Below, piece after piece: positions 1,323 through 24,836 of a stretch of 61,169 bases of DNA. This DNA is from Actinomycetota bacterium (GTDB taxonomy: Bacteria > Actinomycetota > Geothermincolia > Geothermincolales > RBG-13-55-18): assembly GCA_028697145.1 (NCBI GenBank), contig JAQVFR010000002.1, positions 1 through 61,169 of the forward strand. Direction: 5' to 3'. The notes under the pieces are model-generated. The model made no database searches. It had not been told where the DNA came from and saw only the letters and a program-made list of their open reading frames with translations. Every line of letters begins with the position of its first letter. The stretch's first letter is position 1. The position numbers were made by a program, and so were the translations under genes.

Positions 1323-1841
1323 CTACTCCGGAGCGCCTTCCTGGTAACCGAAGGTCTGGCTGCCGCCGGTTATCTGTCCCTTGTAGTTGAAGTACATGGC
1401 ACGCTCGCAGAGGAATGGGGGATTTTCGGGCAATACTTGTACTGCGACTGAAATATCTCCAGAGTATCCATAATAGGCTGCTACATCGTTGATGCTTATA
1501 GTGAATCTTTGTCCAGGTTGTATCGGAGGGGTTACATAAGTCCCAATGAATCCGTTATTTCCGTACATCCTTATTTCGGGCTTTACTGGAGATCCACTCC
1601 CTCCTTCAGCAGTATCTGGGTTATATATCAATATCCATTCCTCGAAGCCCGGCCCTGTATATCCTTCCGGAAAGTACCAGGTCTTCGCCCCCACACCATC
1701 ATCCCCATACGCCTCGGCGTGATCGGCGCGAAAAAACCCCCACAAAGCCAGTGCTCCCAGGGCGCTTCCCGCCACCAGCAGGGCTGAGACCACTCCCGCG
1801 AGCAGCACTCTCCTCGGGCTCACTATCATCACCTGCATCAT
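1323..1841 (-). CDS. Small exported protein with WYxxEGYT-type domain
   Basis: 172 residues. After a short basic N-terminus a single hydrophobic segment (about residues 10-35) suggests a signal anchor or signal peptide. The exported part starts with TWYFPEGYTGPGFEEW and ends with CERAMYFNYKG, a pattern that recurs in the giant protein at 13117-18648 (WYLAEGHTGQGFDTW ... ERAMYFDYRG). The two therefore share one extracellular beta-rich domain, resembling the DUF5719-type domain by my recollection. Function is unknown; attachment to or display on the cell envelope is a guess. AAGGAGAG lies just before the ATG at 1841. It sits between the pseudokinase gene and the BNR gene and is probably cotranscribed with them. 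Confidence 0.7.
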   Translation of the reverse strand: MMQVMIVSPRRVLLAGVVSALLVAGSALGALALWGFFRADHAEAYGDDGVGAKTWYFPEGYTGPGFEEWILIYNPDTAEGGSGSPVKPEIRMYGNNGFIGTYVTPPIQPGQRFTISINDVAAYYGYSGDISVAVQVLPENPPFLCERAMYFNYKGQITGGSQTFGYQEGAPE

Positions 1842-13116: not shown

Positions 13117-16100
13117 TCAGTTCCCGGCCAGGATCTCCCCGAGGTCGACATGCTGCCAGGGCTGGTCGTAATAGCCGTGCAGCGACCACATCTCGAGGGA
13201 ACGGTTGTCCATTAGCACGTGATGGCCCTTGACCGACTGGGAAGTGTCCGTGCCGTAGAACTCGCAGCGGGCAGGGTTAAGGAAATCGATGAGCCACATC
13301 GCCGTATTGCTGTCGATCCCGCCGTAATGCCTGAGTATGAGGTCGAGCATGGTGTCGTAACGCCATTCCGACTCCCTGCCGCCGCCCTGCATCGTATCGA
13401 TGGTGTGGTAGAAGAGGCCCATCTGCGTGAGGTTCATCTGCGGCAATATGTAATGGTTGGTCATGGCCACTACCCCCGGCTCCCTTTCCCGCTGCATGGG
13501 GAAGGGGGAAATCACGGTGCTCTCCGCGATGGGCACCAGGGGGTCCCGCATGTCTATGGCGATCCTGTACCGCTCTATCCCTTCGGGGTCAACGTAGTCC
13601 GAGGCGCGGACGGCCACGCCGCGGTCCGGGTGCGCGTCGCCAAGTACGGGAAGCACACTTGCGCCCCCGAGGAGCAGGTCGCCCAGCGTGGTTATGATGT
13701 CCCCGGCGGCATCCAGGATGCTCACCCCCGTCATCTCCTCCACGCCGGAGAGGATGCCGGAGAGGCCGGGCAACAGACCGGACAGGGTGGACAGGAGGTG
13801 GTCTCCCTCGGGAATCATGCGGTCCGCCACCGTCTCCAGGACCGCGGCGTCCGGTATCTTGCCGTCCGCGATCATGAACAGCCAGGAAACGCCGCGCGAG
13901 GTGTTGCGCACTATCTCTATGCCCTCCTGCATGCTGCCGGCGCGCTGGACCACGTCCCGGCAAAGGAGGAGGCACCCCATGCCGCTTACCACGGCGCGGT
14001 TCTGACGATTGGGGACCATGTCCATGCCGAAACTGACGCCCTGCGAGTTCATGCCGGTGGGAAAGCCCACGAAGCCGGGGACGGCGGAAGTAATCAGGGG
14101 GTATCCCCTGGTGGGCACGTGCACCATGATCAGGGCCTCGTCGGAGAATACGTCCCCGCCGGTCGAGAACATGAAGTCCCTGCCGTGGTAGAGGCGGCCG
14201 TCGCTGGTGCCCTCGCCGAAGGCGGAATACTCGTTGCACAGCAGGCTGCCCGCCTGGTAGACCAGGCTGTAGAGGAAATCGAACCCCACGTTTATGAGGA
14301 GCACGTCGCTGTACGAGACGTCGTATCCCCGGTCCCGCGCGCCGTCGGCTATACCCCGCATCTCCAGCCTGTACTCCTCGGGGACGGCATACTCCTGCGA
14401 CCTGACCGCCTGCCGCAGTACGCTCCTGACCATGGGCGCCAGCAGGCGCAGGAGGAAATCCCCCTCCGGCAGGCCCGCGAACCCCGCTATGAAATTGTCC
14501 ACATAATCGCGGCTCATGCGGTAGACGCCCTCGGGGCAGAGGTAACCCTCGGCGTAGCCGCGCTGGTAGGCGTCACCCTCGAGATAGAGGAGTCCCTTTC
14601 CCGAACTGTTCACGGCCAGGTAGGATGCCCCGTAAGACCCCACCACCCGGTAATCGTCCGGGGATACGGGATTGGAGAGCTGCGGCGGCAAGGCCGTGAT
14701 CCTCACCGTATCCGGAACGCCTTCAGCCCTGCCGTCGCTCACCACGAGATTTATCTCGTACTCGCCCGGCTTGTCCGGGGTAAAGGCGGGCGTAGGTGAA
14801 GAGGGATCGTCCAAGAGCGCTTCGCTTCCCTCGGGCACGCACGGCATACTCCAGGAAAAGGCCAGGGGATCGCCGTCCGGGTCGCTGCTGCCTCTTCCGT
14901 CCAGCCTCACTTCTTCCCTGACCGTTACCTCCCGGTCGGGCCCGGCATCGGCCGCGGGCGGCTTGTTCAGGTACTGCGCCGCCTGCTCCAGTACGGCCGG
15001 AAGGTCGACGTGCTGCCAGGCCTGATCGTAATATCCGTGCAGCGACCACATCTCCAGGGAGTGGTTGTCCATGAGCACGTGGTGGCCCTTGACCGATTGG
15101 GTCGTGTCCGTCCCGTAATACTCGCAGCGGGCCGGATTGAGGAAGTCTATCAGCCACATGGCCTCCCGGCGGTCGATTTCTCCGTAACTCCCGTGCAGCA
15201 GCCCGATCAGGGTCTCGTACCTGTCCTTGGTCTCGTCGAGATGGATGCTGAACAGGGCAGGGTTGGAGGCGGCCATCTGCGGCGTTATGTAATGGTTGGT
15301 CATGGCGACCAGGTCTGGATAGGATTCCTGCTGGCGCGGGAAACGCTCCACGACCGGCCCGCCGGCCTCGTCCGGAAGGTACTGCAGCCCGAAAAGCTCG
15401 ATGCCCTCGGGGTCCATCCAGTCCGACGGCCTGACCGTTAACCCGCGGTCCGGCCTCATCTCGGATATCCCCGGCAGCAGGTTGAGCAGGCTCTCAAGCA
15501 GTTCCCCCGCCCCGCCGACCACGCTGCCCGTCCCGTCCACGAGGCCGGCGGGGAGAAGCCCGTCGGCCCCCTCCATGAGCACTGCGAGCCCGGGGACCAA
15601 CCTGACGATATTATCCATGAAAACGTCGCCGGGCGGCGCGATGGTACTGGCGGCAGTCTCCAGCACGGAAGCGCCCGGCTGTTTCCCGTCGGCGATCATG
15701 TAGAGCCAGGGCACCGCGCGGTCGGCCTGGGCGATTATGTCTATCCCTTCCTGCATGGAGGAGGCGAACTGTACCACCCAGCGGCTGAGCAACAGGCACC
15801 CGGCGCCGGTGATCGCAGGCCTGGTGAAGACGGAGTACACCACGTCCATGCCGCAACTCACGCCCCGGGCGTTCAACCCGGTGGGAATGCCCACGAAGCC
15901 GGGTGCGGCAGAAGCGACGAAAGCGTGCCCCTCATCGGGTTTTTGCACCACCATCAGGGCTTCGTCGGCGAAGACGTCTCCGCCCGTAGGGAACATGAAA
16001 TCCCTGCCATGGTAGAGACGGCCGTCTTCCGTCGCGCCGCCGAAAGCGGCGAACTGGTTGCATGCGAACAAGGAAGCAAGGCCCAGGTAGATGCTTTCAA

Positions 16101-18648
16101 GCGTATCGAACCCCAGGTTGAGCGTGAGCAGCTCCTCATAGCTGACGTCGAACCCGCGCTCCCGGGCACCGTCGGCTATCCCCTGCATCTCCAGGCGGAA
16201 CTCCTCGGGGACCGCATCCTGGTTGGCCGCTGCCGCCTGGATGAGCAGGCCTTTCACCACTCCCCAGACAAGCGGGAGGTCACTCCCGGAGAAGGGTATC
16301 CCGATCGCCTCGAATATAAGCGTGTCGACGAACTCGTGGGTCATGCGGTAGACGCCCTCGGGGCAGAGGTTACCCTCGGCGTAGCCCCGCTGGTAGGCGT
16401 CTCCTTCCAGGTACAGGAGTTTCTTTCCGGCGCTGTTCTCGGCCAGGTAGGACCCCCGGTGCCTGGCGACCTCCACGTAGTCGTCCGGGCTGACGGGGTT
16501 CGAGAGGCCATCTTCCGGGTCCGCGGGACCCGGCGTGCCGTAAGCGCCCCTGATGGTCCTCGCCGCCGCGGGGGGTATGGCGAATTTGAGTATCACGTTG
16601 CGGTCGATTTCTGTGCCCGCGGAACCCGGGTCAGCCTGCGGGTCGCTCGCCGCCGTTTCGAGGTACTCCTCGTCATCGTGTTGCACGCAGGTCAGTACGA
16701 TGCTGCCGGTCCCGTCCCCGTCATCAACCACCTCTATCGCCCTGCCCTCCGAGGGCATGTCCGCGAGCGAGGCGGTCTTTATCTTCCAGTACCCGTTCAT
16801 CCCGCTTCCCTCGGGCTCCACCTTGTGCGTGTGGCTGTGGCCGGCAACATAGGCGATCACGTTGGGGGAATCGCGGAGCGCCTTCTCCACCCTCGAGGCC
16901 ATGACCGGGTCCATGAAAGAGTCGGTCGCATGGTGGGCAAAGACCACCACCAGCTTGCCCCGGTTGGCCTCGATATCCTCCACCATCCAGTAGAACTGCC
17001 GGGGGTCCAGCTCCCCGTTGGCCACGCCTCCCAGCGTACCCTCGGTTATCCTGCTCAGGTAGCCGAGGATGAAGTCCAGCGAGGGAACGACGTTTCCTAT
17101 CTCCCCGGTTGCCTGCGCGAGCCAGTCGTCGTTCGCGGTGTTGAGCACCACGAACCTGAGGCCCGGCCTGGGATCGAAGGCGTAATAGCCGTCGTTCAGG
17201 TTGGCGGAGAGGTTAAAGCCGTGCCCCTGGAGCGAGGTGGTGGTATGAAAGTGTTCGCTTATGAACCCGCTCAAGTCCAGCACCTCTGCTTCCCCCGGTA
17301 CGGGATTGAGGCCGAAGAGCAGGTTAACCAGGTTGGGTGGAAAATTGCCCTGTACCATGATGTCGTGGTTTCCCACCGCCGAGTACCAGGGTATCTCCTC
17401 CAGCAGGCCCTCCGGATCGAGGGCGAGGTCCGGGTGATCGTCCGAACTCGGATCCACCGGGTTCCCGTCCATGATGTCCATGAACCAGCGCAGCTCGTTT
17501 CTCTGGCAGTTGTCTATCCCGTCGCCCGTCACCATCACCAGATCGAAGGGGCCCGGGTTGAAGGGCGACTTTTCGCTTGCATGCATGTCGTTTATCTTGT
17601 TCACCATGGCGTCCAGCGCCCGGGCGGACAGGTGCTCGTGGGGCCGGTATGCGCTGGTGAAGGGGGGGCCGAGCGGATCGAGAAACCGCACCCTCAAGGG
17701 AGAATCCTCGTCCACGATGTGGACGTCGCTCATGTGGAATATATCCGCCAGTTCCAGTTGCCGAGCGCCGGTCGCGCTCTCGCTGCGGGGCTCCGCGCCC
17801 AGGTCGTTCCTGAACGCATACCCTTCGGGTATCTCCACGTCCGCTTCCTCGATCAGGATATTACGCCTATCCACCGCGGTCGCGCCGCCGTCGTCCGTTA
17901 CGGTGAGGATGACTTCGTACTGCGACGCGTTCTTATACTCGTGGCATACCGCCTCTCCCTCCGCCGTCTCTCCGTCCCCGAAGTCCCACGTGCAGAGGAC
18001 GATCTCGCCGTCCGGGTCGCTTGATTTCGAGGCATCGCAGGTTATCTCTTCGCCGGCCTTGCCCGCGTGGGGCATATCCATGACGGCCGCGGGGGGGAGG
18101 TTGTCCGGCTCCGGGACTTCCTGTTCACCGGATGGCTCCTCTTCCTGCCCGCCGTTACCGCCGCCCGTAAGATCTCCCAGCCCCGGGGAGAGGGTGACCC
18201 CGATGGAGCAGTGGCCTCCCCGCATTCCCCGGTAGTCGAAATACATGGCGCGTTCGGCGATCACCGGCTTGTCCGCCGTGACCCTGGTCGACACGTCGGT
18301 GGCGGAGAGCCCGGCGAGGCTGTTCAGGCATATGGACTTGCGCGAACGGGCGGGGAGCTCGAAGCTCACGGGGTCGGCCGATTCCCCGGGGGGAAGCTGG
18401 AATTCCAGGGTCACCAGCGCCTGCTCGTCCCCGGGGTTCTGCACGAGCACCCAGGTGTCGAAGCCCTGTCCGGTATGGCCTTCGGCGAGGTACCAGGCGG
18501 AGGCTGCCTGGGTGACCCCGATGGAGCAGTGGCCTCGCGATACCGCGCTCCCGAACAGCGGCATCATCACCGCGATCAGCAGGAAAGCCACGGCAATCAC
18601 TATCGCCTTCCTGCAGGTCCCTTTCCCGCAAAGCCGAACCGCAAGCAC
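13117..18648 (-). CDS. Giant exported multidomain hydrolase: phosphoesterase plus two C45-type Ntn-hydrolase domains
   Basis: About 1843 residues from a GTG at 18648 with AAAGGAGG seven bases upstream; the ATG at 18675 lacks a site. Order: signal helix (about 12-32), a WYLAEGHTG-type domain (about 45-150), a PKD domain (about 215-275), then a calcineurin-like phosphoesterase (about 320-650) with complete motifs MSDVH, VTGDG, GNHD, AHHA and GHSH. Next comes a first C45/penicillin-acyltransferase-like domain (about 725-1240; ACNQFAAFG, YHGRDFMF), a second PKD domain and a second C45-like domain (about 1350-1843; LCNEYSAFG, YHGRDFMF). The cysteine in each CN(Q/E) motif is the expected N-terminal nucleophile after self-cleavage. 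An extracellular degradative role on amides or phosphoesters is likely; the substrates are unknown. Confidence 0.85.
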   Translation of the reverse strand: MLAVRLCGKGTCRKAIVIAVAFLLIAVMMPLFGSAVSRGHCSIGVTQAASAWYLAEGHTGQGFDTWVLVQNPGDEQALVTLEFQLPPGESADPVSFELPARSRKSICLNSLAGLSATDVSTRVTADKPVIAERAMYFDYRGMRGGHCSIGVTLSPGLGDLTGGGNGGQEEEPSGEQEVPEPDNLPPAAVMDMPHAGKAGEEITCDASKSSDPDGEIVLCTWDFGDGETAEGEAVCHEYKNASQYEVILTVTDDGGATAVDRRNILIEEADVEIPEGYAFRNDLGAEPRSESATGARQLELADIFHMSDVHIVDEDSPLRVRFLDPLGPPFTSAYRPHEHLSARALDAMVNKINDMHASEKSPFNPGPFDLVMVTGDGIDNCQRNELRWFMDIMDGNPVDPSSDDHPDLALDPEGLLEEIPWYSAVGNHDIMVQGNFPPNLVNLLFGLNPVPGEAEVLDLSGFISEHFHTTTSLQGHGFNLSANLNDGYYAFDPRPGLRFVVLNTANDDWLAQATGEIGNVVPSLDFILGYLSRITEGTLGGVANGELDPRQFYWMVEDIEANRGKLVVVFAHHATDSFMDPVMASRVEKALRDSPNVIAYVAGHSHTHKVEPEGSGMNGYWKIKTASLADMPSEGRAIEVVDDGDGTGSIVLTCVQHDDEEYLETAASDPQADPGSAGTEIDRNVILKFAIPPAAARTIRGAYGTPGPADPEDGLSNPVSPDDYVEVARHRGSYLAENSAGKKLLYLEGDAYQRGYAEGNLCPEGVYRMTHEFVDTLIFEAIGIPFSGSDLPLVWGVVKGLLIQAAAANQDAVPEEFRLEMQGIADGARERGFDVSYEELLTLNLGFDTLESIYLGLASLFACNQFAAFGGATEDGRLYHGRDFMFPTGGDVFADEALMVVQKPDEGHAFVASAAPGFVGIPTGLNARGVSCGMDVVYSVFTRPAITGAGCLLLSRWVVQFASSMQEGIDIIAQADRAVPWLYMIADGKQPGASVLETAASTIAPPGDVFMDNIVRLVPGLAVLMEGADGLLPAGLVDGTGSVVGGAGELLESLLNLLPGISEMRPDRGLTVRPSDWMDPEGIELFGLQYLPDEAGGPVVERFPRQQESYPDLVAMTNHYITPQMAASNPALFSIHLDETKDRYETLIGLLHGSYGEIDRREAMWLIDFLNPARCEYYGTDTTQSVKGHHVLMDNHSLEMWSLHGYYDQAWQHVDLPAVLEQAAQYLNKPPAADAGPDREVTVREEVRLDGRGSSDPDGDPLAFSWSMPCVPEGSEALLDDPSSPTPAFTPDKPGEYEINLVVSDGRAEGVPDTVRITALPPQLSNPVSPDDYRVVGSYGASYLAVNSSGKGLLYLEGDAYQRGYAEGYLCPEGVYRMSRDYVDNFIAGFAGLPEGDFLLRLLAPMVRSVLRQAVRSQEYAVPEEYRLEMRGIADGARDRGYDVSYSDVLLINVGFDFLYSLVYQAGSLLCNEYSAFGEGTSDGRLYHGRDFMFSTGGDVFSDEALIMVHVPTRGYPLITSAVPGFVGFPTGMNSQGVSFGMDMVPNRQNRAVVSGMGCLLLCRDVVQRAGSMQEGIEIVRNTSRGVSWLFMIADGKIPDAAVLETVADRMIPEGDHLLSTLSGLLPGLSGILSGVEEMTGVSILDAAGDIITTLGDLLLGGASVLPVLGDAHPDRGVAVRASDYVDPEGIERYRIAIDMRDPLVPIAESTVISPFPMQREREPGVVAMTNHYILPQMNLTQMGLFYHTIDTMQGGGRESEWRYDTMLDLILRHYGGIDSNTAMWLIDFLNPARCEFYGTDTSQSVKGHHVLMDNRSLEMWSLHGYYDQPWQHVDLGEILAGN
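18193..18536 (-). repeat. 26-bp direct repeat flanking the N-terminal domain of the giant protein
   Basis: Bases 18193-18218 and 18511-18536 are identical over 26 bp and in the same reading frame (318 bp apart). Both encode GHCSIGVT. They bracket the WYLAEGHTG domain exactly, as if the domain had been inserted or exchanged by recombination at the repeats. Confidence 0.85.
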
Positions 18649-18847
18649 AATAGCCTCCTTTATTGCACCGGTCATTCAAAAGCTCTTTCTAGATACGAAT
18701 GCTTGCCGGCTTTCCCTCGAAGATTTCAGCCGGTAGAGGCCATGCGCGCCCTTCCGCCTCATGGCCAAATATCCAGCTATACGTGGAACCGGGTGACGCC
18801 GGCACGGAAGGGTTGTTGCCGCGGATGAAACTCGAGCGGGACCCCGC

Positions 18848-19828
18848 CTAAAGGTTTTCGGGAAAGAAACAGGCCGCGAGGTGGCCGGGGGCCTTATCCT
18901 CCAGGGGCGGCTCCTGCTCGGCGCAGATATCCCGTTTCTTCCAGCACCGGGTGTGGAACCTGCAACCGCTGGGGGGATCTATGGGGCTGGGAACGTCGCC
19001 CTCGAGGATGATGCGTTTCCTCTCCCGCTCCTTCTCCGGGTCGGGCAGGGGGACCGCGGACATGAGGGCCACGGTATAGGGGTGCTTGGGGCTGCTGTAG
19101 AGCAGGTCGTGTTCGGCCCTCTCCACGATCTTGCCCAGGTACATCACCGCCACCTCGTCGCTGATGTGCCGCACCACCGAGAGGTCGTGGGCGATGAAGA
19201 TATAGGTGAGGTTGAAGTCCTCCTGCAGCTCCTTGAGGAGGTTGAGTATCTGGGCCTGGATGGAAACGTCCAGGGCGGAAACAGGCTCGTCGCAAATGAT
19301 CAGGCGCGGATTCAGCGCCAGCGCCCTGGCCACTCCGATGCGCTGCCGTTGCCCTCCCGAGAACTCGTGGGGATAGCGCGCGAAGTGCTCCGGCTGCAGG
19401 CCGACCAGGCTGATGAGTTCGATGGCCCTGTTGCGCCTCGATTCCTTGTCGCCCTCCCCGTGTATGACCATCGGCTCCATGACGATGGCGCCCACGCTCA
19501 TGCGCGGGTTGAGCGAGGCATAGGGGTCCTGGAAGATGATCTGCATGCTGCGCCGCACCGCCTGCATGTCCTTGTTGGGGAGCTTGAGGATATCACGGTC
19601 CTCGAATATGACCTCGCCGCTGTCGGCCTTGATGAGGCGGAGCATGAGGCGGGCCAGGGTGGATTTTCCGCAGCCCGATTCGCCCACCAGCCCCAGGGTC
19701 TTGCCCTCCTCCACCTGCAGGGAAACGCCGTCCACCGCCTTGACCGTGCCGCCCAGCCTGGAGAGGATGAGTCCCTTTCCCACCGGGAAATGCTTGACGA
19801 TGTCCCTGGCCTCTATGAGCATGGCCAT
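18848..19828 (-). CDS. oppF: Oligopeptide ABC transporter ATPase (OppF/DppF type)
   Basis: 326 residues. It has Walker [10 protein letters not shown], signature [12 protein letters not shown], Walker [14 protein letters not shown] and the C-terminal oligopeptide-transporter extension with cysteines ([14 protein letters not shown]). Such extensions bind a 4Fe-4S cluster in related transporters. The ATG at 19828 overlaps the stop of the preceding ATPase (TGATG). As the last gene of the five-gene operon it pairs with OppD to drive import through OppBC. Confidence 0.9.
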
Positions 19829-20838
19829 CAGTCCTCCACCCCCTTGCCGTGCCGCTCGAAGTCCCTGGCGAAATGGCAGGCGGAGAGGTGGCCGGGCTCC
19901 GCCTCCACCAGCGGAGGTTCCTGCTCGCTGCATATCTCCTCGGCGAAGGGACAGCGCGGCGAGAAGCTGCATCCCGGGGGAAGGTTGATGAGCGAGGGCG
20001 GCGAGCCGCCGATGGTGAGCAGGCGTTCTCTTTTCTCGTCCATGCGGGGCACGGAACGCATGAGGCTCCAGGCATAGGGATGGCGCGAGTTGTAGTAAAC
20101 CCTGCCGATGTCCGCGTACTCCACCACCTTGCCCGCGTACATGACCAGCACCGCCTCCGCCACCCCTGCCACCACGCCCAAGTCGTGGGTGATGAGCATC
20201 ACCGCCAGGTTGATCTCGCGCTGCAGGCGGCCGATGAGCTCCATTATCTGCGCCTGGATGGTAACGTCCAGGGCGGTTGAGGGCTCGTCGGCGATGAGCA
20301 TCATGGGTTCGCACGAAAGGGCCATAGCGATCATGGCTCGCTGCCGCATCCCCCCCGAGAACTCATGGGGATACATCTTATAGCGCTTCTCCGCCTGGGG
20401 TATCTCCACCATCTCCAGCAGCTCGATGGCCCGCTGTTTCGCTTCCTTGCGCGAGAGTCCCAGGTGGATCTGGATGGGCTCCCTGATCTGGTTGCCGATG
20501 GTGAACACGGGATTGAGGGAGGTCATTGGGTCCTGGAAGATCATGCCGATATGGTTTCCCCTGACCTGGCGTATCTCCCTGTCGCTGAGCTCCAGCAGGT
20601 TGCGCCCCTCGAATATCACCTCTCCTTCCTCTACCTTTCCCGGCGGGTCGGGGATGAGGTTGAGGATGGAGAGGGCGGTGACCGACTTGCCGCAGCCCGA
20701 CTCCCCCACCACCGCCAGTGCCTCCCCCCGGTCTAGGTCGAAGGAGACTCCGTCCACCGCTTTCACCACGCCTGCCTGGGTATGGAAATAGGTCTTCAAG
20801 CCCCGGACCTCGAGGAGCCTCTCGCCGTTCGCGCCCAT
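19828..20838 (-). CDS. oppD: Oligopeptide ABC transporter ATPase (OppD/DppD type)
   Basis: 336 residues from the ATG at 20838; GAAGGGA is ten bases before it, whereas an in-frame GTG at 20847 is too close to the site. Motifs are Walker [10 protein letters not shown], signature [11 protein letters not shown], Walker [13 protein letters not shown] and the C-terminal [14 protein letters not shown] cysteine cluster. It starts one base after the OppC stop and overlaps OppF by one base, so translation is coupled. It supplies one of the two nucleotide-binding subunits of the peptide importer. Confidence 0.9.
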
Positions 20839-20839
20839 C

Positions 20840-21835
20840 TCACACACTTCCCTTCAGGCGCGGGTCCAGGGCGTCGCGCAGTCCGTCGCCCAGGAGGATG
20901 AAGGCCAGCACGCTGAGGACGATGGCCGTCCCGGGGATGAACATCATCCAGGGGTCCGTGGTGTAATAGACCAGGTATTCGGAGAGCATGTTGCCCCAGC
21001 TGGGGGCGGGCAGCTGCTGTCCCAGCCCCAGGAATGCCAGCCACGCCTCGGCCAGGATGGCGCCTCCGACGCCCATGGTGGCGTAGACGATGATGGGCTG
21101 GATGGAGTTGGGCATGATGTGCTTCCAGATTATGCGCGCGTGGCTGGCGCCCATGGCCCGGGCCGCCTCCACGTACTCGTTCTCCTTGACCGAGAGAATG
21201 GAACTGCGGAATATCCTGGCTATTGTGGCCCATCCCAGCACGCCGATAGCTATGAACACGTTGATCAGCCCGGGCCCAAGGACGGTCATGATGACGATGG
21301 CGCCGAGCACGGTGGGGAAGGCGAAGAAGATGTCGGCCGATCGCATGATCACCGAGTCCCCCCAGCCGCCGAAGTACCCGGCCAGGGCTCCGAACAGAAG
21401 GCCGATGAGCAGGGAGATGAGCACGGCGACGATGCCCACTTCCACCGAGACCCGGCTCCCGTGCACCAGGCGCGAGTATATATCGCGCCCGAGTTGGTCC
21501 GTGCCCAGCCAGTGCTCGGAATTGGGCGTCTGCTTGACGGCACCCGCTTTTTCCGCGGAACTGACGGTGGAGTCGTAGAGGGGGCTGTACAGGGGGTCGT
21601 GGGTGGCCAGCAGGGGCGCGAAGATAGCCACCAGGAAGAGGACGATAATGATCACTATACCCACGATGGCCAGCTTGTTGTGCCGCAGCCGGTACCACAC
21701 GTCGCTCCACAGCGCGGTGCGTCCGTGGATCTGCTCCTTCTCCAGCTCGAGCTCGAACTCCTCGATCTCGGGGCCCAGGAGATCGGGTTGCTCCTTTCCC
21801 GGCATGAGGTCTTCGGGTCCCCCGTGGTCAGGCAA
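20840..21835 (-). CDS. oppC: Oligopeptide ABC transporter permease (OppC/DppC type)
   Basis: About 331 residues. The N-terminal cytoplasmic part (acidic, EEFELELEKEQ) leads to the first helix (LAIVGIVIIIVLFLVAIFAP), followed by an extracellular loop (HWLGTDQLGRDIYSR, a hallmark of this permease family) and five more helices with the EAA-type coupling loop EAARAMGASHARIIWKHI. A TTG at 21835 lies ten bases after AGGAGG and right after the OppB stop; an ATG at 21805 is the alternative. It forms the membrane channel with OppB. Confidence 0.85.
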   Translation of the reverse strand: MPDHGGPEDLMPGKEQPDLLGPEIEEFELELEKEQIHGRTALWSDVWYRLRHNKLAIVGIVIIIVLFLVAIFAPLLATHDPLYSPLYDSTVSSAEKAGAVKQTPNSEHWLGTDQLGRDIYSRLVHGSRVSVEVGIVAVLISLLIGLLFGALAGYFGGWGDSVIMRSADIFFAFPTVLGAIVIMTVLGPGLINVFIAIGVLGWATIARIFRSSILSVKENEYVEAARAMGASHARIIWKHIMPNSIQPIIVYATMGVGGAILAEAWLAFLGLGQQLPAPSWGNMLSEYLVYYTTDPWMMFIPGTAIVLSVLAFILLGDGLRDALDPRLKGSV

Positions 21836-21837
21836 TC

Positions 21838-22800
21838 TCAAGTCACCTCCTGACCTCCGCCCAGGCGGATGCGCGGATCGAGGAAGGCGTAGGAGATATC
21901 CACCAGCAGGTTGATGAACACGAAGATGAGCACGAGTACGAATACGGTGCCGATGACCATGGTATGGTCTCTCTGCAACACGGCGTTGTAGACCTTGTGC
22001 CCGATCCCCGGCCAGTTGAAGATGATCTCCGTGAGCACCGCCGCCCCGATGAGCACCCCGAAGTCGATGCCGATGTAGGTGACCACCGGGATGAGCCCGT
22101 TCTTGAGGCCGTGTTTGTAAGTGACCCTGCGGTTGGAAAGGCCCTTGGCGCGGGCGGTCTGGATATAGTCCTGCCGCATGACCTCCAGCATGGAGGAGCG
22201 CTGCATGCGGGCGACGTAGGCGGTGGAGATGGCCGCCAGCGCCACGGCGGGCATGATGTAGTATTTCAGGCCCGTGAAGAACGCCGTCCCCGGCGGAGGG
22301 GCGCCCGCGGCCGGCAGCCAGCTGAGCCACTGCGAGAAGAACAGCTGCAGTAATCGTCCGATCCAGTATATGGGCATGGCCACGAGGATGGTGGTGGTTA
22401 TGGTCACCAGCACGTCCCAGAAGGAGTATCTGCTCACGGACGAGATCACCCCGGCCAGGATACCGAGGATGATAATGATGATCTCCGCGACGATGGCCAG
22501 CTTGATGGACCAGGGAAGGCCCTCCCTGATGATATCCATGACCGGCCGCTTGTAGGTGAAGGAATCGCCCAGATCGAACGTGGGGAGTCCCTTCAGGTAT
22601 ATCCAGAAACGGCTGAAGAACGGCTTGTCCAGGTGGAACTTCTCGCGGATGTTCTGCAGCATCTCCTCCGTGGCGCCCTTGGGGGCCCGCATCTGCGCCA
22701 CGTCGCCGGGGATGATGGTCATCATGAAGGAAAGAAGAAGTACGACCCCGATGACGACGATAACGGTCTGGTAGAGCCGCCGCAGTATGAATATCAGCAT
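21838..22800 (-). CDS. oppB: Oligopeptide ABC transporter permease (OppB/DppB type)
   Basis: 320 residues and six transmembrane helices. The first helix is at the very N-terminus (LIFILRRLYQTVIVVIGVVLLLSF) and the EAA-type loop is RQDYIQTARAKGLSNRRVTYKHGLKN. This order and length are typical of the first permease of peptide importers. The ATG at 22800 has a poor ribosome site, so expression may be lower than that of the binding protein. A hairpin separates it from the upstream binding-protein gene. Confidence 0.88.
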   Translation of the reverse strand: MLIFILRRLYQTVIVVIGVVLLLSFMMTIIPGDVAQMRAPKGATEEMLQNIREKFHLDKPFFSRFWIYLKGLPTFDLGDSFTYKRPVMDIIREGLPWSIKLAIVAEIIIIILGILAGVISSVSRYSFWDVLVTITTTILVAMPIYWIGRLLQLFFSQWLSWLPAAGAPPPGTAFFTGLKYYIMPAVALAAISTAYVARMQRSSMLEVMRQDYIQTARAKGLSNRRVTYKHGLKNGLIPVVTYIGIDFGVLIGAAVLTEIIFNWPGIGHKVYNAVLQRDHTMVIGTVFVLVLIFVFINLLVDISYAFLDPRIRLGGGQEVT

Positions 22801-22857
22801 CTAATCGATCGTCCTCTTCTTATCAAGTGGAAGCATTGTTACGGTAGCACACGCAAA

Positions 22858-22888
22858 GGGGGCTCGCAAGGATTCCCCGCGAGCCCCC
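22858..22888 (-). terminator. Hairpin between binding-protein and permease genes
   Basis: GGGGGCTCGC (22858-22867) pairs perfectly with GCGAGCCCCC (22879-22888). On the minus strand only a short T run follows, so it is a partial terminator or mRNA-stabilising structure. It would give more binding protein than permease. Confidence 0.7.
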
Positions 22889-22914
22889 AATTGACCTGAA
22901 TCAGTCGCCGTTGG

Positions 22915-24531
22915 TTATTCCTCGATAAAGTACACCCTCTCCATCGGCGACAGGTCATCCGCGGTGCGGATATAGCCGCCGACGTTGTTTGCATAGACCC
23001 TCGACGTCTTGTAGTACATCAAGGGGACGATGGGTGATTCCTCGAGGATGATGCGCTCCGCCTCGCGGTAAAGCTCGAGCCTTTCGTCCTCATCGGCGGT
23101 GCTGCGCGCCTCTTCCAGCATGGCGTCAACTTCGGGGTTGTTGTACATCGTGAAGTTGTCCACGGACGCCGACTGGAACAGCGGGTAGAGGAAGTTGTCC
23201 ATGATGGGGTAGTCCGTCAGCCATCCCATGCGGAAGAAGGTCACCTGCCCGGCCTGGATGAGGTCGAGGTAGGAGCCCCACTCATACCCCTCGAGGGTCA
23301 CGTTCAGGCCTAGCTCCGTCAGGTTGCCCTGGATGAACTGGGCCGGGTCCTCGTGACCGCCGCCGGTGTTGTAGCCCAGCGTGAGCGCGGGAAGTCCCTG
23401 GCCATCCGGATACCCGGCTTCCGCCAGGAGTTCCTTCGCCTTGTCGATATCGTAGGTGTAGTCGGAGGCGCCCTCCTGGTATCCGGGGATGCTCGGAGGA
23501 ACGATGCCCTCCGCGGGCAGGCGCTGGCCCTCCATGACCACGTCGCACAGGGTCTGGCGGTCAACGGCGTAGTTGAGCGCCTGGCGCAGCTCCTTGTTGT
23601 CCTTCCATGGCTCGGCGGTGACGTTGAGGCCGTAGTAGTAGATGCCCATCATGGGCACGAAGAGGGCGTGGTCACCGAACTCCGCCTCTGCCGCCGCGAA
23701 CTGCCCCTGAGGTATCTGGCAGTCGTGCAGGGTGCCGGCCTTGAAGTCCTGGTAAGCGGTCTCCTCTTCCATGTAGATCTTATAGACCACGGAGTCCAGG
23801 AAGGCGGGCTCGCCGTAGTAGTCCTCGAACTTGCTCGTGACCACCTGCTGCTCGTGCGTCCAGGAATCGAACATGAACGGGCCCGTCCCAACCGGGTTCT
23901 CGTTGAAGTTCTCGCTACCGACCTCCTCCACTACCTCCTTGGGTATGGGCGAGGTAACGGGGTGAGCGGTGTGATAGACGAAGTCTGCATAGGGATAGGA
24001 GAGGGTGACCTCGAGGGTGTAATCGTCCAGGGCCTTTACTCCCTCCAGCTCCGTAGCTTCTCCCGCCTGCATCTCATCGAAGCCCTTGACCGGGGCCAGG
24101 TGATACGCGACCTCGCTGGCCGTCGCCGGGTCGCATACGCGGTTCCAGGAGTAAACGAAATCCTCAGCCGTGCACTCGCGGCCGTTGTGGAACAACACGC
24201 CTTCTTTCAGCTTGAAGGTGAAGACCGTGGCGTCCTCGTTGGTCTCGAAGGACTCGGCCATGGCCGGCACCAGTTCCATGGTGTCGGGGTCGTTGTCCAT
24301 GAGGCCGTCGTAGAGCGCCTTCCCCACAGCGATGCCCTCGGATTCCTGCAACTGGGCCGGATCGAGGGATACGGGCTCGGCGTTGAGGCAGTAATTGAAG
24401 GTCCCGCCTTCCTTGGCCCCAGCCTCCTTTTCCTCCGTTTTCTCCTCGCCGCAACCGCTGTAGAGCATGGCGACGCCCAGCGCCAGCACCATGGCTGCAA
24501 CGAGGATGATCAGAAACTTGCCCTTTCTCAT
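22915..24531 (-). CDS. oppA: Oligopeptide ABC transporter substrate-binding lipoprotein
   Basis: 538 residues from the ATG at 24531, preceded by AAGGAGG; an in-frame start at 24561 is weaker. A lipoprotein signal ends in YSGC with the lipidated cysteine near residue 26, followed by a charged linker (EEKTEEKEAGAKEG). The mature part is a family-5 extracellular solute-binding protein: NYCLNAEPVSLDPAQ, YSWNRVCDP, ELRQALNYAVDR and the C-terminal ESPIVPLMYYK. It would bind peptides outside the membrane and deliver them to OppBC. It heads the operon. Confidence 0.9.
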   Translation of the reverse strand: MRKGKFLIILVAAMVLALGVAMLYSGCGEEKTEEKEAGAKEGGTFNYCLNAEPVSLDPAQLQESEGIAVGKALYDGLMDNDPDTMELVPAMAESFETNEDATVFTFKLKEGVLFHNGRECTAEDFVYSWNRVCDPATASEVAYHLAPVKGFDEMQAGEATELEGVKALDDYTLEVTLSYPYADFVYHTAHPVTSPIPKEVVEEVGSENFNENPVGTGPFMFDSWTHEQQVVTSKFEDYYGEPAFLDSVVYKIYMEEETAYQDFKAGTLHDCQIPQGQFAAAEAEFGDHALFVPMMGIYYYGLNVTAEPWKDNKELRQALNYAVDRQTLCDVVMEGQRLPAEGIVPPSIPGYQEGASDYTYDIDKAKELLAEAGYPDGQGLPALTLGYNTGGGHEDPAQFIQGNLTELGLNVTLEGYEWGSYLDLIQAGQVTFFRMGWLTDYPIMDNFLYPLFQSASVDNFTMYNNPEVDAMLEEARSTADEDERLELYREAERIILEESPIVPLMYYKTSRVYANNVGGYIRTADDLSPMERVYFIEE

Positions 24532-24836
24532 GCATGACCTCCTTGCTCGATTCTCTCCCACCCTTTATGGGTAATATCTTTCCCGCAAGCAATGTTTCTT
24601 AAATACAATCCCTGCTCTCACCCCCTCCATCCGGGTCACAGCCCCCGGATTTCCTCCATCGTCGCCCCAGGCAACGAGCGGACAGTGAGCGGATGTATCG
24701 AGTGGATATTCACCCCCTCCGTCTACCAGCCCTGCCTTTCCCTCTTTTCTTTTTCAGCTAATTATATGAACACTTTCTCGAGCATGTAAAGCCAGTATCC
24801 ATGCGGGCTCAGCACAAGATACATCCAGGTATAATA
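24532..24836. other. Intergenic region upstream of the peptide operon
   Basis: About 305 bp between oppA and the dUTPase gene, both on the minus strand. It should hold the oppA promoter; AT-rich DNA lies at about 24565-24605. No RNA gene, strong terminator or coding frame is apparent. Confidence 0.4.

Follow-up and report, generated by a model that had tools for sequence, protein, structure and literature searches.

The gene and its domain order

The window analysed here is a stretch of 61,169 nucleotides from an Actinomycetota draft genome (52 contigs, 3 Mb), and the gene under study lies inside a 180-kb contig. We found a single uninterrupted minus-strand open reading frame at 13117-18675, which comprises 1852 codons when counted from an upstream ATG. 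The GTG at 18648 is the likelier start, giving 1843 residues, because a strong ribosome-binding site (AAAGGAGG) precedes it. A previous sequence-only reading had placed a long fused exported protein at 13117-18648; these coordinates are correct, with the stop at 13117, and the unbroken frame and significant domain scores confirmed the fused protein. Its domains run in the order signal peptide or transmembrane segment, one DUF5719-like repeat, PKD, metallophosphoesterase (MPE), a first C45 module (C45a), PKD and a second C45 module (C45b; Table 1).

Table 1. Features of the fusion gene and its upstream flank. Residues are numbered from the ATG at 18675; subtract 9 for numbering from the GTG.
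Feature	Position	Strand	Residues	Basis or remark
CDS of the fused, putatively exported protein	13117..18648	-		GTG start, 1843 aa; stop 13117
Alternative in-frame ATG upstream	18675	-		Would yield 1852 aa
Shine-Dalgarno-like AAAGGAGG	18654..18661	-		5 nt ahead of GTG 18648; direct reading
oppABCDF-type peptide ABC transporter genes	18848..24561	-		Directly upstream, ~200 bp before GTG
Basic N-terminus and hydrophobic stretch, signal peptide or membrane anchor	18538..18648	-		Hydropathy peak at residues 19-42
DUF5719-like repeat unit	18187..18537	-	47-163	Profile and genome matches
PKD domain 1	17851..18105	-	~193-267	Profile match
TIGR03767-like MPE	16510..17826	-	284-722	All dimetal motifs; similarity to L093 enzyme
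C45a, predicted Cys-Ntn amidohydrolase with own propeptide	14983..16509	-	723-1231	Profile, conserved start, tree
Predicted nucleophile codon, C45a (FA/CNQ)	16060..16062	-	Cys872	Motif
PKD domain 2, separating C45a from C45b	14695..14970	-	~1244-1327	Profile match
C45b, predicted Cys-Ntn amidohydrolase with own propeptide	13120..14664	-	1338-1852	Profile; modelled fold matches isopenicillin N acyltransferase
Predicted nucleophile codon, C45b (LL/CNE)	14236..14238	-	Cys1480	Motif

A consensus scan between the opp genes and the fusion gene showed no terminator or promoter; co-transcription is possible, and the transporter could import products of the fused enzyme. We rejected a conserved opp neighbourhood, as the examined relatives lack it, with opp-like sequence near a C45 gene at one locus alone (L109).

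The N-terminal hydrophobic stretch is the sole strong hydropathy peak of the whole chain, and the protein is presumably exported. The PKD_4 profile scored 108.9 bits across two stretches. PKD spacers had been proposed earlier, and they do stand before the MPE and between the C45 modules, whereas the MPE is joined to C45a by a short linker only. The "shared N-terminal surface domain" of the same reading does recur, matching about 140 other places in the genome, and its identity is corrected here to a DUF5719-like repeat. The single copy in the fusion scored 19.8 bits with the DUF5719 profile (PF18986), below the cut-off of 26.2 bits, which this genome's other proteins with tandem copies exceed. 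In most sampled regions (L172-L183 of the same genome, and window positions 1344-1775), about four copies stand in tandem, almost always as the C-terminal part of exported proteins whose N-terminal enzymes are unrelated (CAP, L,D-transpeptidase, SpoIID and glycoside hydrolases). The fusion protein differs in that its unit is single and N-terminal. The unit is likely a surface-attachment module. A literature search on the MPE-C45 fusion, DUF5719 and Candidatus Solincola found no paper in the library searched.

The C45 and metallophosphoesterase modules

The NF040521 C45 proenzyme profile scored 195.4 bits against a cut-off of 85, and both nucleophile motifs recognised earlier are in place, CNQ at residue 872 and CNE at 1480. 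A structure model of C45b (mean pLDDT 83.9, pTM 0.87) best matched the isopenicillin N acyltransferase (IAT) precursor (E 1e-14, TM 0.77 by target length), followed by acid ceramidase and NAAA precursors; this search confirmed an IAT-type Ntn fold for C45b, with a propeptide ahead of the Cys. For C45a, the same fold with a propeptide is predicted only from 54% identity.

In 24 C45 relatives, the Cys and Asn of CN, the Arg of HGR and the Asn-His of TNH are invariant. The canonical GRNxD Asp, two residues after the Asn, is not present in the modules here, which read HGRDFM; Met replaces it in 24 of 24 aligned members, giving the subfamily signature C-N...HGR-D-F-M. Distant C45s in Myxococcota MAGs retain GRNTDY, and compared with these (C...GRNTDY) the Cys-to-Arg spacing is equal while Asn-x-Asp has become Asp-Phe-Met, with a new Asp on the same strand, two positions ahead, in all 24 RDFM members. 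On profile and fold we classed the modules as a divergent C45 subfamily, the canonical Asp being a catalytic hallmark that falls outside the NF040521 cut-off criterion. The equivalent Asp162 of acid ceramidase aids autocleavage and catalysis, and D162N strongly lowers both (PMC5915598); Asp21 of bile acid hydrolase touches the Cys amino group (PMC3289653). The new, earlier Asp may have taken over, or else the chemistry would differ. Because the canonical Asp is Met across the whole subfamily, self-cleavage before the C45 cysteines is less certain than had been assumed; it is plausible, not assured. The invariant Asp-to-Met change allows a direct test of what self-cleavage of cysteine Ntn-hydrolases requires.

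The same change, set beside the crippling effect of D162N on acid ceramidase, could also mean that self-processing amidase function is missing from the C45 modules, which would have become binding domains or perform other chemistry, with the MPE as the sole active part. We regard this as rather unlikely because dead domains would drift, yet bacteria and an archaeal bin alike retain the Cys, Asn, Arg and TNH, and every member has gained the earlier Asp.

Of 396 genomes sampled from the actinobacterial phylum, 15 have the C45 subfamily, and all 15 belong to Candidatus Geothermincolia; additional members occur in Smithellaceae, Myxococcota and one archaeal bin. In the tree, C45a grouped with a Smithellaceae sequence (L092_2) and C45b with those of L090, L043 and L044; the two are old, separate subfamilies. 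A recent tandem duplication was rejected since they sit on separate branches, and vertical inheritance of C45a within the genus is not supported because the G001 and G002 copies fall in another branch. At the DNA level, C45a and C45b share a 30-bp exact match, and their 3' ends (14983-15200 and 13120-13360) are 80% identical over 218 bp, against 70% over most of the remainder; this higher identity may reflect partial gene conversion between the modules or simply stronger conservation. Elsewhere, three RDFM-type C45 genes are consecutive in a Myxococcota MAG (L110, 1-4764), and in G015 a C45 gene is broken into two overlapping frames (L056/L104, 7174-9098) by a frameshift or sequencing error.

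The MPE carries the complete calcineurin-type motif set that had been read from the sequence (DVH 317, GD 384, GNHD 435, HH 581 and GHSH 612), passes the PF00149 Metallophos cut-off (34 bits against 21.5) and has metal ligands that show little or no variation among 13-20 aligned relatives. Because its score against TIGR03767 (200-211 bits) is under the cut-off of 330.75, it is best classed as a relative of that family and not a member. TIGR03767 enzymes have been linked to organic phosphate use in Cutibacterium (PMC9723661). The predicted MPE structure was poor and unusable (mean pLDDT 40.5). The MPE was found in 1 of 31 Candidatus Geothermincolia genomes, that of the window, and was absent from the other 30; no relatives were found on viral contigs. 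Its closest relatives, from Smithellaceae and Myxococcota MAGs, are stand-alone enzymes, with which it grouped (99/98) rather than with 19 actinobacterial enzymes, in an unrooted tree with a long separating branch.

Searched against the PDB, the MPE family profile best matched the dimetal phosphatase 2nxf, which we take to be an ADP-ribose/CDP-alcohol phosphatase-type enzyme, and also reached SMPDL3A, purple acid phosphatases, 2zo9 (presumably a GpdQ-type bacterial phosphohydrolase) and, very weakly, acid sphingomyelinase. The matches to SMPDL3A and acid sphingomyelinase, together with the next-best fold matches of C45b, acid ceramidase and NAAA, would suit a lipid-specific machine, in which an acid-sphingomyelinase-like MPE and ceramidase/NAAA-like amidases strip the head group and acyl chain off one sphingolipid or N-acyl phospholipid. 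Such a machine is unlikely, as the top match is 2nxf, TIGR03767-like enzymes form a group apart, fold similarity does not fix a substrate, and other family members have CocE or PETase-like partners.

Uniqueness of the fusion and its modular relatives

The domain order had been called unusual, and a domain-architecture check agreed: the 31 class genomes and 396 phylum genomes yielded no other MPE-C45 fusion, nor did the 155 and 247 genomes sampled near the Smithellaceae and Myxococcota relatives or the 23 loci from a GTDB r220 contig scan, although part of these scans scored the best few candidates per genome and rare fusions could escape.

Among the relatives, C45 modules have exchanged partners. 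The L090 protein reads SD-PKD-PKD-S15/CocE-PKD-C45b, L094 has C45-PKD-S15, L092 has C45-PKD followed by a PETase-like alpha/beta hydrolase (a weak match, under the Pfam cut-off), and L043 and L044 have C45b-PKD followed by a propeller-like domain of ~500 aa; others are stand-alone, with or without PKD. The L043 and L044 proteins are 84% identical over their shared part, and their C-terminal ~500 aa have no Pfam match, the beta-propeller look being judged by eye. The L090 contig is binned as Candidatus Methanosuratincola and encodes a Solincola-like protein with DUF5719 unit and C45b; it is probably mis-binned. In a Smithellaceae MAG, an MPE gene with a twin-arginine-like signal lies next to a C45b-like gene, downstream of it and in the same orientation (L093), and C45b-like and C45a-like genes are adjacent (L092); given these gene pairs, the window protein fuses modules that another lineage has adjacent. 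Because C45b relatives have other partners and Smithellaceae C45b-like and MPE genes adjoin, we count the fusion as a new member of a family of exported multi-hydrolases that is modular in build.

That assembly or frame error merged separate genes, as the mostly separate relatives, the draft state of the genome and the DNA identity between C45a and C45b might suggest, is very improbable and was rejected: the module borders are natural (MPE similarity to the stand-alone L093 enzyme continues through FAIPPAAARTI to the module end, and a few residues further on C45a opens at the LSNP with which such modules begin), no signal peptide is left between modules, codon-position GC stays level from one end of the gene to the other (GC3 ~0.83-0.86 in each of the three catalytic modules), a separate assembly (L090) has the SD-PKD...PKD-C45b frame as well, and the gene is internal to its contig. 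The sequence-only reading had named, as grounds against the fusion, homologs with separate genes and a frame error joining them here; separate-gene homologs do exist (L093, L160, L162, L202 and L203), and there is no sign of a frame error.

Proposed function and comparison with known systems

We lean, with moderate confidence, towards an exported, probably surface-bound multi-enzyme that combines a phosphoesterase with two amidases and scavenges organic matter; surface-bound removal of phosphate and acyl groups is its most likely role. After secretion, the MPE would bind two metal ions and cleave phosphodiesters or phosphomonoesters, and C45a and C45b, as amidohydrolases with an N-terminal cysteine nucleophile, would attack acyl-amide (or ester) bonds, possibly in sequence. 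If both C45 modules self-cleave before Cys, three polypeptides would result (1-862, 863-1470 and 1471-1843, GTG numbering), and these would stay joined because the two halves of each module remain associated. The PKD domains would serve as spacers and the DUF5719-like unit would aid surface location. The joint task would probably be to scavenge organic matter that is acylated and phosphorylated, for example dead-cell lipids, for its carbon, nitrogen and phosphate; the cell-wall action also suggested earlier found no specific support. More tentatively, the gene may encode a self-cutting three-chain complex, whose two Ntn amidases, their catalytic Asp relocated (HGR-D-F-M), cut themselves and so release and tether the phosphoesterase, as one design of a partner-swapping modular family. 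Domains fused in one lineage and adjacent in another usually share a substrate, which would link TIGR03767-like MPEs, RDFM-type C45s and, via L090 and L094, CocE/S15 enzymes.

Among known systems, the C45 modules share with NF040521 and isopenicillin N acyltransferase (2x1c) an above-cut-off profile score, the Ntn fold with propeptide, the Cys nucleophile and the GR and TNH motifs; they differ in reading HGRDFM rather than GRNxD, in length (~500 aa each), in occurring twice per chain and in being fused to an MPE. Acid ceramidase (ASAH1) and NAAA have the same fold and a similar propeptide-then-Cys layout, but identity is ~11-13% and the canonical Asp is absent here. TIGR03767/TIGR03768 metallophosphoesterases are the nearest family to the MPE by sequence and have identical motifs, whereas the MPE is below both curated cut-offs, branches with Smithellaceae/Myxococcota forms and is part of a fusion. 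The L090 protein (1722 aa) likewise has a single N-terminal SD, PKD domains and a terminal PKD-C45b, its C45b being 80% identical, with a CocE/S15 alpha/beta hydrolase in place of MPE-C45a. Finally, the Smithellaceae MAG STD1_139 (L092 and L093) has counterparts of C45a, C45b and MPE as paired neighbours, though as separate genes and with other fusion partners.
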